64,000 nt of DNA from Promicromonospora sp. AC04. GTDB lineage: Bacteria; Actinomycetota; Actinomycetes; Actinomycetales; Cellulomonadaceae. Shown here piece by piece: positions 8,650 through 62,048 of the stretch (position 1 is the first letter of the stretch; each line of letters opens with the position of its first letter). The position numbers were made by a program, and so were the translations under genes. Location of the stretch: positions 310,001 through 374,000 of the forward strand of contig NZ_QBUG01000004.1 in NCBI RefSeq assembly GCF_003058225.1, written 5' to 3'. The notes below the pieces were generated by a model. It had not been told where the DNA came from. It saw only the letters and a list, made by a program, of their open reading frames with translations, and made no database searches.

Positions 8650-8673
8650 CCCCTCTCAGACCGCCGAGGCAGA

Positions 8674-8727
8674 ACTGTGGCGAGGTAGAACCAGGGCATC
8701 GCGCTCTGGTCCTACTTCGCCACAGCT
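8674..8727. terminator. Palindromic element between gpmA and mshA (bidirectional terminator-like repeat)
   Basis: Arms 8674-8697 (ACTGTGGCGAGGTAGAACCA and on) and 8703-8727 pair over about 23 bp with three mismatches or wobbles and a 5-nt loop. A further outer pair, GCCGAGG (8663-8669) and CCTCGGC (8744-8750), and a second partial copy of CGCCACA (8734-8740) nest around it. It lies between the converging ends of gpmA and mshA. Its core is shared with the element at 61981-62048. Confidence 0.65.
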
Positions 8728-8758
8728 CTAATTCGCCACATGACCTCGGCGCAGCTCG

Positions 8759-16835: not shown

Positions 16836-17621
16836 ATGAGCGCCGTCGACCTGAACAGCGACCTCGGCGAGGGCTTCGGGCGGTGGAGCCTCGGCGACGA
16901 CGAGCAGATGCTCGGCATCGTCTCCAGCGCCAACGTCGCCTGCGGGTTCCACGCCGGGGACCCGGCGTCCATCCGCCGCACCGTGCGGTCCGCCGTGGCG
17001 CACGGCGTCACCATCGGCGCGCACGTCGGCTACCGCGACCTGGCCGGGTTCGGCCGCCGCAACATGGACGTCCCCGACGACGAGCTCGAGGCCGACATCG
17101 TCTATCAGATCGGCGCGCTCCGCGGCCTGGCCGACGCCGAGGGCGCTACCGTCACCTACGTGAAGCCGCACGGCGCGCTGTACAACACGGCGGCGGTGGA
17201 CGAGCGGGTCGCCCGGGCCGTCGCGGCGGCCGTCGCCGCCGTCGACCCTGGGCTGGTGCTGCTGGGGCTGCCCGGGAGCGTGGCTCTCGCGGCGGGCGAG
17301 GCGGCCGGGCTCGCGACGGCAACCGAGGCCTTCGCGGACCGCGCGTACACCCCGGAGGGTCGCCTGGTCTCGCGGCGAGAGCCGGGTTCCGTGCTGCACG
17401 ACGCCGACGACGTCGCACGCCGCATGCTCCGCCTCGTCACCGAGGGCGTGGTGACCGCGGTGGACGGGTCCGACGTCGCCGTGCGCGCCGACTCGGTGTG
17501 CGTGCACGGCGACTCCCCCGGCGCCGTCGCCATGGCCCGGCGGATCCGCGAGGTGTTCGACGCCGAGGGCATCCGGCTCGCGGCGTTCGCCCCGGCGGCG
17601 GGCAGCGGCGCCGCAGCGTGA
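16836..17621 (+). CDS. pxpA: 5-oxoprolinase subunit A (LamB/YcsF family)
   Basis: PxpA is the LamB/YcsF subunit of the prokaryotic ATP-dependent 5-oxoprolinase, which opens the pyroglutamate ring to glutamate together with PxpB and PxpC. The 261-residue protein begins with the family signature [11 protein letters not shown] and continues with [38 protein letters not shown] and [17 protein letters not shown]. These Asp, His and Glu residues line the predicted active site. AAGGAAA precedes the ATG at 16836. Its TGA overlaps the ATG of pxpBC by one base, so synthesis is coupled. Confidence 0.93.
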
Positions 17622-19465
17622 TGCGGGTACTGACCGCCCGCGACGACGCCCTCCTGGTCGAGCTCGACGACCTGGACCAGGCGGTCGCGCTGTACGAGTC
17701 CCTCCTGGCCGACCCCGTGCGCGGCGTCGGCGTGCCCGTGCCCGGCGCGCGGACGCTGCTCGTGCCGTTCCGCCCGTCGGCGATCGCGGCGCGGGACCTG
17801 GCCACCGAGCTCCGGACGAGGCCGCTGGAGCGCCGGACCACCTCCGCCGCGCGCACCGTCGAGATTCCCGTCCTGTACGACGGCGCCGACCTCGCCGAGG
17901 CGGCCGGGCTGCTCGGCTGGAGCCCCGACGAGCTGGTCCGGCGGCACACCGCGGCGGCCTGGACGGTGGGGTTCGTCGGGTTCGCGCCCGGGTTCGCCTA
18001 CCTGACCAGCGACGACTCCGAGCTGGTGGTCCCTCGGCGGTCGAGCCCGCGCACCCGGGTGCCGGCCGGGTCGGTGGCCCTCGCCGGGCCGTACAGCGGC
18101 GTCTACCCCCGGGAGAGCCCCGGCGGGTGGCAGCTCGTGGGCCGCACCGACGCGCCGATCTGGGACGTGACCCGCGAGCGCCCGGCCCTCCTGCTCCCGG
18201 GCGACCAGGTGCGCTTCGTCGCGATCCGGGAGAAGGTCCGCTTCGATCGAGCAGTTGGGCATGCTTCGCAGCCCGAGACCAGTCCCAACCGCTTGATCGA
18301 AGCGGACCTTCGCTCGACCACTGGGTCCGGCCATGTCGACGAGGGTGTCGAGGTGGTCAGCCCCGGCGTGCAGGCGCTGGTGCAGGATCTCGGCCGGCCA
18401 GGATCCGAGGGAGCCGGGGTGTCGGCGTCCGGTGCGCTGGACCGCCCGAGCCTGCGCGCGGCCAACCGGGCGGTCGGCAATCCGTCGGACGCCGCGGCGA
18501 TCGAGTCGGTGGGCGGGCTGCGGCTGCGTTCTCGCGGCCCGCAGGTGCTCGCGGTGACGGGGGCGGTCGGCGACATCGTGGTCCGGCCAGGTGTCGCTGC
18601 CGAACCGGGCGCCGTCGGCCCGGGCGGTGACCAGCGGGGTGCCGCCGAACCGGCGCGCCCCAACCGCCGTCCGCGGCCCGGGGAACCGTTCGCGCTGGAC
18701 GACGGCGACGAGCTGCGGCTGGCGCCCCCTGCCCGAGGCGTGCGTGCCTATGTGGCGGTGCGCGGCGGGATCGACGTGCCGCCCGTGCTGGGCAGCCGGG
18801 CCACGGACGTGCTGGCCGGGCTGGGGCCCGATCCGCTCGGGTCCGGCGACCTGCTGCCGGTCGGCACGCCGGCTCGGGGCCTCCCCGCGGCCGACCCGTT
18901 CGTGAGCGTGCCCGTCGGGGGAACGGCGCCGCGCGGGGCACCACGCGGCGAGACGCAGCAGGGGGCGATGCGCCCGGGCGAGACGCCGCCGTCGGGCATC
19001 CAGGCGGCTGCAGGCACCCTGCCGCCGTCGGACGACCTGCCGGCGCCCGGCGAGGTGACCGTGCTGCCGATCGTCCTGGGGCCGCGTGACGACTGGTTCG
19101 ACGCCGCGGCGATCGCCAGGCTGACCGGCCAGGACTGGCTGGTGACGCCGCGCTCCAACCGGATCGGGCTGCGCCTGGACGGGGAACCCGTCACCCGCGT
19201 CCCCGAGCGGGACGGCGCGGAGCTGCCGAGCGAGGGCTGCGTCACCGGCGCGATCCAGGTCCCGCCGGACGGCCTGCCCGTCCTCTTCCTCGCCGATCAT
19301 CCCTTGACCGGCGGCTACCCCGTGGTCGGGGCCGTCGCCGCGGACCACGTGCCGCTCGCCGGGCAGCTGCCCGCGGGCGCGCACGTCCGCTTCACGATCC
19401 GGGACCTCGCGCCGAGCGCGCGCCCGGAGGACACCACCCGGAACCACGCAGGAGGCACCTCATGA
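17621..19465 (+). CDS. 5-oxoprolinase subunits B and C fused (KipI/KipA domains), with an in-frame palindromic insert
   Basis: A 614-residue fusion. Residues 1-205 are PxpB (KipI, AHS1 domain) with [15 protein letters not shown] and [13 protein letters not shown]. Residues about 245-600 are PxpC (KipA, AHS2 domain) with [28 protein letters not shown] and [21 protein letters not shown]1/AHS2 pairs also form the carboxyltransferase part of urea carboxylase. Two odd features are visible. The junction contains a 78-bp inverted repeat (18233-18310) translated in frame. The C domain also carries a Gly/Pro/Arg-rich insert (about residues 425-470, near [15 protein letters not shown]). It overlaps pxpA (TGATG) and the biotin carboxylase (ATGA). 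Separate B and C genes are the more usual state. Confidence 0.88.
18233..18310. repeat. Long inverted repeat inside pxpBC coding sequence
   Basis: Arm 18233-18259 (AAGGTCCGCTTCGATC, then GAGCAGTTGGG) pairs with 18284-18310 at 25 of 27 positions around a 24-nt spacer. It lies exactly at the boundary between the PxpB and PxpC domains and keeps the frame open. It encodes the linker from about residue 205 to 230. Its design resembles the long palindromes found between genes elsewhere in this window, but its sequence differs. Confidence 0.75.
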
Positions 19466-21456
19466 TCCGCACCGTGCTCATCGCAAACCGGGGCGAGATC
19501 GGGGTCCGCGTGGCCCGGGCGTGTGCCGACCTGGGGATCCGCTCCGTTGCGGTGTACGCCGACGGCGATGCCGACGCCCTGCACGTCCGCCTCGCCGACG
19601 AGGCCTGGGCCCTGGACGGACGCACCGCCGCGGAGACCTACCTGTCGGTGGGGAAGCTGCTCGACGTCGCGCGCCGGTCCGGCGCCGACGCGATCCACCC
19701 CGGGTACGGCTTCCTGTCCGAGAGCGCGGCCGCGGCGCGCGCCGTCGAGGAGGCGGGGCTGGTGTGGGTGGGGCCGACGTCGGCCACGATCGAGCTGCTC
19801 GGCGACAAGATCGCCGCCCGCGACCTGGCACGAAAGGTCGGCGCGCCCCTGGTACCCGGCTCGGACGGCCCGGTGCCCGACGCCGCCGCCGCGCTCGCCT
19901 TCGCCGAGGAGCACGGCCTGCCGCTGGCCATCAAGGCGGCGCACGGCGGCGGGGGCCGAGGAATGCGCGTGGCCCGGACCCTTGAGGAGGTGCCCGAGCT
20001 GTTCGACGCCGCCCGGCGCGAGGCGGAGGCCGCGTTCGGGCGGGGCGAGTGCTTCGTCGAGCGGTTCCTGGAGCGGCCCCGGCACGTGGAGGCGCAGGTC
20101 ATCGCGGACGACCACGGCCATGTGGTGGTCGCGGGCACCCGCGACTGCTCCCTGCAGCGACGCAACCAGAAGCTGGTCGAGGAGGCGCCCGCGCCGTTCC
20201 TCGACGACGCCGTGCGTGAGCGGGTGCACGAGTCCGCGCGCGCGCTGTGTGCCGCCGCGGGTTACCGGAGCGCCGGGACTGTGGAGTTCCTGCTCGGAGT
20301 GGACGGCACTCTCTCGTTCCTCGAGGTCAACACGCGGCTCCAGGTGGAGCACCCCGTCACGGAGGAGACCACCGGGCTGGACCTCGTGGTGGAGCAGCTC
20401 CGCGTCGCCGGCGGCCTGCCGCTGTCCGTGACCGAGGACCCCGAGCCGCGCGGGCACGCGATCGAGCTGCGGCTCAACGCCGAGGACCCGGCGCGCGGGT
20501 TCCTGCCCGGGCCCGGGCGCATCGACCGGTTCGTCCCGCCCGCGGGCCCGGGCGTCCGGGTGGACTCCGGGGTCGAGTCCGGGTCGGTGATCCCCGGCGA
20601 GTTCGACTCGCTGTTCGCCAAGATCGTCGTGTGGGGGCCCACCCGGGAGGCGGCTTTGGCGCGGGCCCGTCGGGCCGCCGCCGAGACCGTTGTCGAGGGG
20701 GTGCCCACGGTGCTGCCGTTCCACCGCGCGGTGCTCGCCGACCCGGCGTTCACTGCGTCGGGCGGCGGGGCTGCGGACGCCGGAGCAGAGGGCACCGGAG
20801 CAGAGGGCACCGGAGCAGAGGGCACTGGAGCAGAGGGCACCGGAGCAGTGGGCACCGAAGCAGTGGGCACCGGAGCAGTGGGCACCGGAGCAGCCAGCGC
20901 CCCGTCAGCAGGCGCCGCGTCAGCAGGCGCCCCGTCAGCAGGCACGCACGGATTCGCCGTCCACACCCAGTGGATAGAGACGGAGCTCCTGGCGTCGATC
21001 GACCCGCAGACACTCGCCGAGCCTGTGGTCGAACCCGGGGTAGTGGACACCTGGGTCGAGATCAACGGGCGGCGGTACCGGGTCCGCACCCCGGGCGGCA
21101 TGGGGTTCGCGGGCGCCGGTCCGGCGGGCGCCGGTCCCGTCGGTTCCGGCAGCGCGGCACCCGGCAGCGCGGCACCCGGCACCGGCGGGACCTCGACGGC
21201 CGAGGGCGCGACCCCGCCGTCGGGCAGCGGGACGGACGACGGGCGCGTGCCGGTGCTCGCAGCCATGCCCGGCAGCCTCGTGCGCTGGCTCGTGGCCGAC
21301 GGCGAGACCGTCGCCGACGGGCAGCCGGTCGCCGTGGTCGAGGCGATGAAGATGGAGACGCAGCTCGTATCGGCGGCCGCGGGTGTCCTGAAGCACAAGG
21401 CGGCCGAGGGCACGCAGATCACCCCGACCGACCCGATCGGCTACGTGGCGCGGTAG
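19462..21456 (+). CDS. Biotin carboxylase with C-terminal biotin carrier domain
   Basis: A 664-residue enzyme that carboxylates its own biotin using ATP and bicarbonate. The N-terminal biotin carboxylase (about 1-440) has [30 protein letters not shown] (ATP-grasp loop), [15 protein letters not shown] and [14 protein letters not shown]. The C-terminal carrier domain has EAMKMET with the biotinyl Lys630. Between them, residues about 440-495 are a simple [10 protein letters not shown] and APSAG repeat encoded by 15-bp tandem units. No acetyl- or propionyl-CoA carboxyltransferase gene is nearby; the operon partner is PxpBC, whose AHS1/AHS2 domains are the carboxyltransferase module of urea carboxylase. 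This suggests a carboxylation-dependent reaction. The start overlaps the pxpBC stop (ATGA). A plain acyl-CoA carboxylase role is possible but less likely. Confidence 0.87.
20781..20945 (+). repeat. 15-bp tandem repeats inside the biotin carboxylase gene
   Basis: Seven consecutive 15-nt units of the type CGGAGCAGAGGGCAC run from 20781 to 20885. The first four carry GAG (Glu) and the last three GTG (Val), with scattered single changes. A partial unit follows, and then three units of CCCGTCAGCAGGCGC type (20901-20945). The period is a multiple of three, so changes in copy number would keep the frame. Confidence 0.9.
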
Positions 21457-40237: not shown

Positions 40238-40311
40238 CCGTAGTCCCCGGAAATGCCAGACGCACAGGTCACCGGAGTGACCTGTGCGTCTGGCATTTCC
40301 GGGGACTACGG
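40238..40311. terminator. Perfect 35-bp palindrome between ppa and the NlpC/P60 gene
   Basis: Left arm 40238-40272 (starting CCGTAGTCCCCGGAAATGCC) and right arm 40277-40311 are fully complementary with a 4-nt loop CGGA. It begins 7 nt after the ppa stop. The right arm contains the stop codon (40306-40308) of the converging peptidase gene, so both genes end in it. It should act as a bidirectional terminator. Confidence 0.85.
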
Positions 40312-43974: not shown

Positions 43975-44017
43975 TTCGCCGGGTGAACTTCCGCTACTGA
44001 ACCTGGCTCCAGTAACC

Positions 44018-44053
44018 TTCGTCGGGCCGGTCGACGCCGACCGGCCCGACGAA
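44018..44053 (+). terminator. Perfect 16-bp hairpin between the VOC and beta-propeller genes
   Basis: TTCGTCGGGCCGGTCG (44018-44033) pairs fully with CGACCGGCCCGACGAA (44038-44053) around ACGC. It is 43 nt after the VOC stop and directly before the GAGGAG ribosome binding site of the next gene. TAACCT at 44013-44018 could be a -10, in which case the hairpin would instead be the 5' end of the propeller mRNA. Confidence 0.6.
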
Positions 44054-44065
44054 GAGGAGCGTCCA

Positions 44066-48099: not shown

Positions 48100-48169
48100 C
48101 CCGAGGTACCCGACGCCGGAGTGGTCACCTTCCAGAGGAGGCGACCACTCCGCCGTCGGGCACCTCGGG
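48100..48169. terminator. 30-bp inverted repeat between the GH16 gene and lacI
   Basis: Arms 48100-48129 (CCCGAGGTACCCGACGCCGG and on) and 48140-48169 match at 27 of 30 positions. It starts 12 nt after the GH16 stop. The -10 box TATAAC of the lacI gene starts at 48170, immediately after the right arm, so the element also occupies the lacI -35 region. Confidence 0.7.
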
Positions 48170-57550: not shown

Positions 57551-57610
57551 GCCGAACGTAGGCTTGGTCGCTCCATCGGCACTCATGCCGCGACCAGGCC
57601 TACGTTCGGC
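57551..57610. repeat. 21-bp inverted repeat in the divergent nitroreductase-cupin region
   Basis: GCCGAACGTAGGCTTGGTCGC (57551-57571, written here in full as positions only beyond 20 bases) pairs with 57590-57610 at 20 of 21 positions around an 18-nt loop. Unlike the other long palindromes it lies upstream of both flanking genes, which start at 57506 and 57661, so it is not an ordinary terminator. Confidence 0.65.
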
Positions 57611-61980: not shown

Positions 61981-62048
61981 GATAGAACTGTGGCGAGATA
62001 GAGCTGCAGCGAGGTAGAACCGCAGCCTTCGCTGCGGTTCTACCTCGC
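61981..62048 (-). terminator. Palindromic element after osmC sharing its core with the gpmA-mshA element
   Basis: GCGAGGTAGAACCGCAGC (62009-62026) pairs perfectly (18 bp) with 62031-62048 around CTTC. Just upstream (61985-62003) AGAACTGTGGCGAGATAGAG is an imperfect extra copy of the same core. The words AGAACTGTGGCGAG and GCGAGGTAGAACC also occur at 8671-8692. It lies 19 nt past the osmC stop on the minus strand. Confidence 0.7.

Follow-up and report, generated by a model that had tools for sequence, protein, structure and literature searches.

The fused 5-oxoprolinase gene pxpBC of Promicromonospora sp. AC04 contains a long palindrome within its open reading frame, at the point where two proteins are joined, and the question raised by this locus is how such an element came to lie inside a protein-coding gene and whether it has shaped the protein that it interrupts. 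We examined the gene within the 64,000-nt stretch of DNA that carries it (hereafter the window, to which all coordinates refer), where the following features are found, the palindrome being assigned to a dispersed family that we term family A:

17621-19465, plus strand: pxpBC (fused 5-oxoprolinase subunits B and C, 614 aa), by open frame and Pfam
17621-18193, plus strand: PxpB part, Pfam match to CT_C_D (aa 1-191)
18416-19396, plus strand: PxpC part, Pfam match to CT_A_B (aa 266-592)
18233-18310, strand not given: family-A palindromic element, 78 nt, 26 codons in frame (aa 205-230)
18233-18259: left arm (extended arm 18227-18259)
18260-18283: central 24 nt between the arms of the pxpBC copy
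18284-18310: right arm (extended arm 18284-18316)
18236-18331, plus strand: codons of a low-confidence stretch in the AlphaFold2 model (aa 206-237, pLDDT < 50)

An initial annotation had described an inverted repeat with 27-bp arms, 25 of 27 positions matching, and a 24-nt spacer inside the reading frame at the PxpB-PxpC junction; counting by eye and an inverted-repeat tool both confirm it, and with six bases added per side the tool gives arms of 33 nt at 88%. The palindrome is real and beyond chance: it scores 22 in an inverted-repeat scan where the top score per shuffle was at most 14 (20 dinucleotide shuffles of the window), and the RNA fold of positions 18223-18320 reaches -61.4 kcal/mol (z = -9.6), with 0 of 200 shuffles equally good. 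Its G+C content is 60%, that of the window 73%. The element sits in one open frame between the CT_C_D and CT_A_B domains; its codons score -6.7 in coding potential in a gene where 21 of 24 blocks are positive, and the low-confidence stretch of the AlphaFold2 model, flanked by well-modelled domains, covers nearly all of the residues that it encodes. On this model, the pxpBC copy is 26 codons added in frame to a linker predicted to be disordered, and the resulting extension of the protein is most likely neutral. The ATG of pxpBC overlaps the stop codon of the gene upstream, which we take to be pxpA-like, and a second low-confidence stretch (aa 422-465, window 18884-19015, pLDDT < 50) is predicted within PxpC.

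Searching the window's genome (26 contigs, 6.85 Mb) at the DNA level returned many copies of the pxpBC palindrome. Eighteen of these, among the best own-genome matches, align gap-free over 80 columns, most of them ending in AAGGTCCGCTTC and GAAGCGGACCTT, and in the structure derived from these same copies 94.8% of stem cells are paired, with change on both sides in 10 of 31 pairs (41 such cells). None of 500 shuffles covaried as highly on the cell count and the score, and 5 and 6 of 500 did so on the pair-count and type-count measures. A covariance model, for which 150 of 2401 candidates were scored, recognises 37 separate places in this genome (E <= 0.00125 for each on its better strand), among which C10:14843 and C3:93939 look nearer to a second family, B, and C10:246827 and C16:36908 are weak. 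The genome-wide search for copies proposed in the initial annotation has therefore led to a dispersed family with covarying arms, and the likeness in design to the intergenic palindromes of this genome that had been remarked upon holds, since the same model recovers 37 places of which 35 are counted as intergenic. Within the window, the pxpBC palindrome is the sole family-A copy, the other palindromes there differing from it in sequence. The model also has matches in all 13 genomes of the genus; sampling 150 genomes across the family gave matches in 27, from 7 of 25 genera. The core between fixed anchors measures 72 nt in 69 of the 72 copies measured outside genomes G007, G009 and G010 and 71 nt in 14 of 16 copies within these three, with 10 of 98 copies left out for want of anchors. 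Family A is a dispersed palindromic family of nearly fixed length, about 78 nt. Rfam returned nothing at gathering scores for the window and 15 element-bearing loci, plasmids searched for family A and viral contigs searched for one exact family-A pattern gave no match, and no paper describing such a family for actinobacteria came up in the literature searches on palindromes.

Genes were called with a home-made codon-score caller in place of a standard annotator, and by these calls two of the 37 places in the window's genome lie inside genes and 35 outside, with three of the latter overlapping a called gene start or end. Among 61 copies fetched from relatives, an incomplete set made up of the best-ranked matches to a model trained on the window's genome, one is genic and one lies at a contig edge. 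Pooling these 61 with the 37 own places minus the two genic ones gives 96 places, of which 43 are convergent, 49 co-directional and 2 divergent, the last 2 being genic or at an edge. Control intergenic gaps of at least 80 nt at the same loci number 18 convergent, 68 co-directional and 52 divergent, and divergent placement is therefore seen in 2 of the 94 copies classified but in 52 of the 138 control gaps, a control that counts two-copy loci twice and may include the gap of the other copy. The median distance to the nearest gene 3' end is 19 nt, with 77 of the 92 copies measured lying within 50 nt of one, and the usual place of a family-A copy is just past the stop codon, at the 3' end of a gene. 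As about 93% of the window is coding by the same caller, copies avoid genes or are purged from them. Long open frames across copies are mostly due to chance: of 20 more copies fetched, many of them for a long frame, one (L341) is genic.

Family A or its close kin nonetheless lies in frame in four genes, encoding PxpBC, an oligopeptide ABC protein, an ImuB-like polymerase and a copper ATPase. The oligopeptide permease-ATPase-ATPase fusion has, in genomes G000 and G006, a related palindrome nearer to family B that lies between the two ATPase domains; it is absent from the other 8 of the 10 junctions read, and every one of the 13 genomes of the genus has an open frame of 900-1223 aa running through the permease. 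In another genus of the family, genome G060 carries family A ahead of the conserved tail of a polymerase that has weak, below-cut-off matches to DNA polymerase IV and that we take to be ImuB-like. All 14 orthologues aligned, one of them from the same genus, lack the element as judged by eye from the protein alignment, from which a fifteenth match (G038) was left out, and several have glycine-rich loops at its site. The same genome also carries family A in frame in a copper/heavy-metal P-type ATPase, where the element's codons score +4.3 in coding potential, not negative as in pxpBC. Because the sites are empty in the ABC and ImuB-like orthologues, the in-frame copies of these genes represent gains, and the proposal that a palindromic element lies in frame in a gene here, as in Rickettsia, is borne out by four genes and a dispersed family. 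All four read the element in the same frame (...VRFDHAV...NRVIEADL..., by eye). Of 94 copies, 74 have the frame used open on one strand and 86 have it open on the opposite strand, the remaining frames being open in 52-61, so that openness explains part of the preference; the hand-estimated chance of about 3% for four of four in one frame, which treats the family-B-like copy as family A, is suggestive only. Separately, LVEPVET-like peptides from short repeats occur in domain linkers (the ABC linker in L199, L200 and L202, and the first linker of the L078 ORF), and these are maybe another class of linker-entering repeat.

These data support a model, to which we assign a probability of roughly 85%, where the pxpBC palindrome is a copy of a genus-wide, mobile-type hairpin family of about 78 nt, usually found at gene 3' ends, that entered a pre-existing linker and was tolerated. 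The hairpins at gene 3' ends would possibly act at transcript ends, as terminators or mRNA stabilisers, a role suggested by their placement. A copy would have entered a PxpB-PxpC linker already in existence, where its 26 residues could be added and tolerated because its length is a multiple of three and its frame usually open, and family A or close kin would have entered other genes too, in the same frame. Such elements would belong to the REP/MITE sort of small, non-autonomous palindrome, and copies would survive where they do no harm, at gene ends or in flexible protein linkers. How the copies move we infer; many copies are common to orthologous sites, which counts against the model, as do the negative results that follow. 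A Y1 transposase of the RAYT kind (PF01797) was found in none of the 13 genomes of the genus (the control was positive in 5 of 14 known genomes), which rules out RAYT as the driver. Exact flanking repeats of at least 3 nt, sought as target-site duplications at assumed 80-nt borders, accompany 1 of 93 family-A copies, and the own-genome search gave no convincing single arm or arm-flanked gene, its other matches being of 14-31 nt with E >= 1.8.

The alternative that survives best sees in the family conserved transcription terminators rather than mobile DNA, and in the pxpBC copy a chance or relict terminator. The placement at 3' ends with its convergent bias, the occurrence of copies at orthologous gene ends across species and a short T enrichment at the end of the stem are all consistent with it, although termination at these hairpins is not proven, as the T-rich end of the stem is short. 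A common 80-nt sequence in dozens of unrelated places requires copying, however, whereas terminators require no common sequence, and the in-frame copies with palindrome-free orthologues point to gain; we regard this alternative as unlikely, while granting it some weight.

The pxpBC junction itself was compared across relatives, the gene being present in 11 of 13 genomes of the genus (E <= 1e-30). The family-A palindrome occupies the junction, in the same frame, in G000, G005 and G012, and variants of it do so in G001 and G011; in G008 and G009 its place is taken by a palindrome of family B, 59 and 61 nt long; G006 retains at most a half remnant (by eye), and G002, G003 and G010 have no palindrome. 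Seven of the 11 gene-bearing species thus have a junction palindrome, drawn from two dispersed families. Outside the genus, G032 has another, unrelated palindrome at this junction, and Isoptericola chiayiensis (L116) has a 27-bp one of a third family with two more strong places in its genome. Across these species, the one pxpBC linker therefore holds dispersed palindromes of at least three families. Family B is dispersed too, in 10 of 13 genomes of the genus, and 40 of its copies from four genomes comprise 18 convergent, 20 co-directional and 2 divergent placements; its members are 61-nt palindromes (GTTGACCACAGC...GCTGTGGTCAAC) located at the 3' ends of genes, and many of them occupy positions orthologous in several species (L260, L262, L264, L268, L275-L310). 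In the alphaproteobacterium Phyllobacterium leguminum (L183), an 11-bp hairpin (CCCTCTCCCCGC.../...GCGGGGAGAGGG) is seen in the same pxpBC linker. Conservation of the linker and both arms at the protein level in all relatives, which the initial annotation had named as the observation that would contradict it, is not what we find: linkers vary, and 4 of the 11 species are without an intact palindrome. The junction palindromes may go back to a single old insertion whose sequence has since turned over, or to several insertions, and neither the gene tree, weakly supported at several nodes, nor the linkers, which differ between species and are too divergent for a base-exact insertion point, choose between the two.

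The recurrence of junction palindromes of different sequence families within the genus, the unrelated ones in G032 and I. chiayiensis and the very stable fold could also mean that the hairpin is kept for a job in the pxp mRNA, such as slowing ribosomes between the domains or adjusting how much of the PxpC half is expressed if translation fails. We consider this improbable, more so than a terminator origin: G010 is fused through a short linker without a palindrome, G002, G003 and G006 have no intact one, a single linker inverted repeat scores above 11 among 80 homologues examined, and like elements lie in the ABC, ImuB-like and copper-ATPase genes, the first two of which have palindrome-free orthologues. 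All 80 of these homologues, kept from 581 found in a GTDB scan and including Proteobacteria, are fused, in a scan that keeps the best-covered matches and so under-represents separate pxpB and pxpC genes; the nearest named ones are from Antribacter soli (61%) and Isoptericola (54%), and in G040 the two genes are perhaps separate, as judged by frame length. That the palindrome made the fusion, by inserting at a stop/start overlap of two genes, is scarcely credible even though its position coincides exactly with the junction, a related copy occupies a domain junction in a second fusion, that of the oligopeptide ABC gene, and the accessible text of PMC13274462 reports separate pxpB and pxpC in Corynebacterium glutamicum, because the 80 fused homologues and the palindrome-free fused genes of the genus rule it out, or strongly disfavour it unless these are losses, and the ABC frame is likewise open in every genome of the genus, with 8 of the 10 junctions read palindrome-free. 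Aligning the junctions, as had been advised, thus brought to light palindrome-free fused genes within the genus, and of the two possibilities first considered, the addition of a linker segment stands and the creation of the fusion does not.

Entry of a mobile-type hairpin into an existing linker belongs to a kind already known, as far as the accessible parts of these sources go, from Rickettsia palindromic elements (RPEs), intragenic MITEs and intragenic REPs (PMC3767692, PMC2229807, PMC3733652). Like the palindromic elements of Rickettsia and Wolbachia, family A is dispersed, occurs inside ORFs without loss of frame and adds a peptide; the available text on these notes one gene region, that of biotin ligase, with palindromic elements in both genera (PMC3767692). 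Its copies are a dispersed repeat lying in pre-existing ORFs with the frame intact and with copy-free orthologues (ABC, ImuB-like), as expected of protein-coding palindromes. RPEs are given as 100-150 bp (PMC3767692) or 105-146 bp (PMC2229807) in the portions available, and the 78 nt of family A fall outside the 100-150 bp of RPEs proper; unlike these, and comparing descriptions rather than sequences, family A resides in high-GC actinobacteria and overwhelmingly at gene 3' ends. REPs, as described in the accessible text of PMC3733652, are palindromes that follow coding regions, lie for the most part between convergent and co-directional genes and in some cases occupy ORFs, and family A resembles them in its 3'-end placement, its rarity between divergent genes and its copies in ORFs. 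It differs in that REPs are 20-40 bp, against units of about 78 and 61 nt here, and in that PF01797 is absent from 13 of 13 genomes; the GTAG or CGTC tag that marks REPs was not seen by eye at the ends of the family-A copies printed. The bacterial MITEs ERIC/RU-1, YPAL/RU-2 and RU-3, which the available part of PMC2229807 presents as small non-autonomous repeats with open frames fusing in frame with genes, share with family A its small size and in-frame fusion, but no target duplication was found here at the assumed borders, nor a parent transposon in the window's own genome, and the arms fill nearly the whole element. Finally, the I-shaped (U-lacking) intrinsic terminators of GC-rich bacteria are, in the accessible text of PMC8269248, stable transcript-end hairpins without U-rich tracts, which family A resembles as a stable hairpin with a transcript-end role suggested by its placement; these terminators are defined by structure, whereas families A and B are sequence families of nearly fixed length that also occur inside genes. 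What is different here is the host phylum, the length, the 3'-end dominance relative to RPEs, the lack of RAYT and a concerted stem signature, and the best reading is an RPE-like element of the REP/MITE sort that would serve chiefly as a 3'-end hairpin. Palindromes entering proteins have been described for Rickettsia and Wolbachia and, more loosely, for REP- or ERIC-bearing bacteria, and an actinobacterial family of nearly constant length, with a single reading frame in use and orthologues free of the palindrome, provides a further, non-intracellular setting for studying the movement of such elements and the tolerance that proteins show towards them.

The concerted signature resides in four stem positions. 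Many copies lie at orthologous gene ends in several species, yet pairs from one species show an identity of 0.869 at these positions (675 pairs; 0.844 when the window's genome is left out), whereas pairs at orthologous sites reach 0.639 (44 pairs from 13 sets, 95% interval 0.565-0.728) and pairs sharing neither 0.595, with all pairs treated alike as to orientation and 7 of 98 copies excluded for weak match or register. All 1000 label shuffles fell below the within-species value, whether or not the window's genome was included. CAAG is found in 30 of 37 copies of the window's genome, CACA in 4 of 7 in G005, CCAG in 15 of 16 in G007, G009 and G010, and CAGG in 7 of 9 in G001 and G011, with signatures mixed in G012 and G006. 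The signature tracks species and not site, and the family thus seems to evolve in concert. Elsewhere in the element, site and species do not separate in the outer stem (0.843 vs 0.889) or the inner stem (0.677 vs 0.685), and whole-arm identity does not favour species over site (41 of 90 comparisons). Loops show 0.537 at orthologous sites vs 0.427 within species, a difference that is not significant as the set bootstrap (0.371-0.635) spans both; inheritance of the copies themselves is suggested by their shared position, and the loops do not show it. Either old sites are renewed by copying and conversion, or a stem-reading factor changes and the copies follow. A bolder version, which we put forward tentatively and consider rather doubtful, is that the hairpins are read by a trans-acting factor that changes between lineages, so that the signature switches in both arms genome-wide, and that the translatable frame (VRFDHAV...NRVIEADL) allows entry into proteins. 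Were that so, these protein-coding palindromes would form a system that lacks a RAYT and has a recogniser of its own, evolving together with them. The concerted signature offers a testable way to look for a recognising factor.

The window contains several further repeats. A perfect 35-bp palindrome with a 4-nt loop, not of family A, lies between convergent genes at 40238-40311, and intergenic palindromes at 8671-8729 and 62009-62048 have the word GCGAGGTAGAACC in common and perhaps form another family. The scan lists more intergenic palindromes with arms of 15 to 31 nt at 48100-48169, 57551-57610, 44017-44054 and 2278-2330. Tandem GAEGT-like repeats occur at about 20700-20910, within ORF 19462-21456, which presumably encodes a biotin carboxylase.
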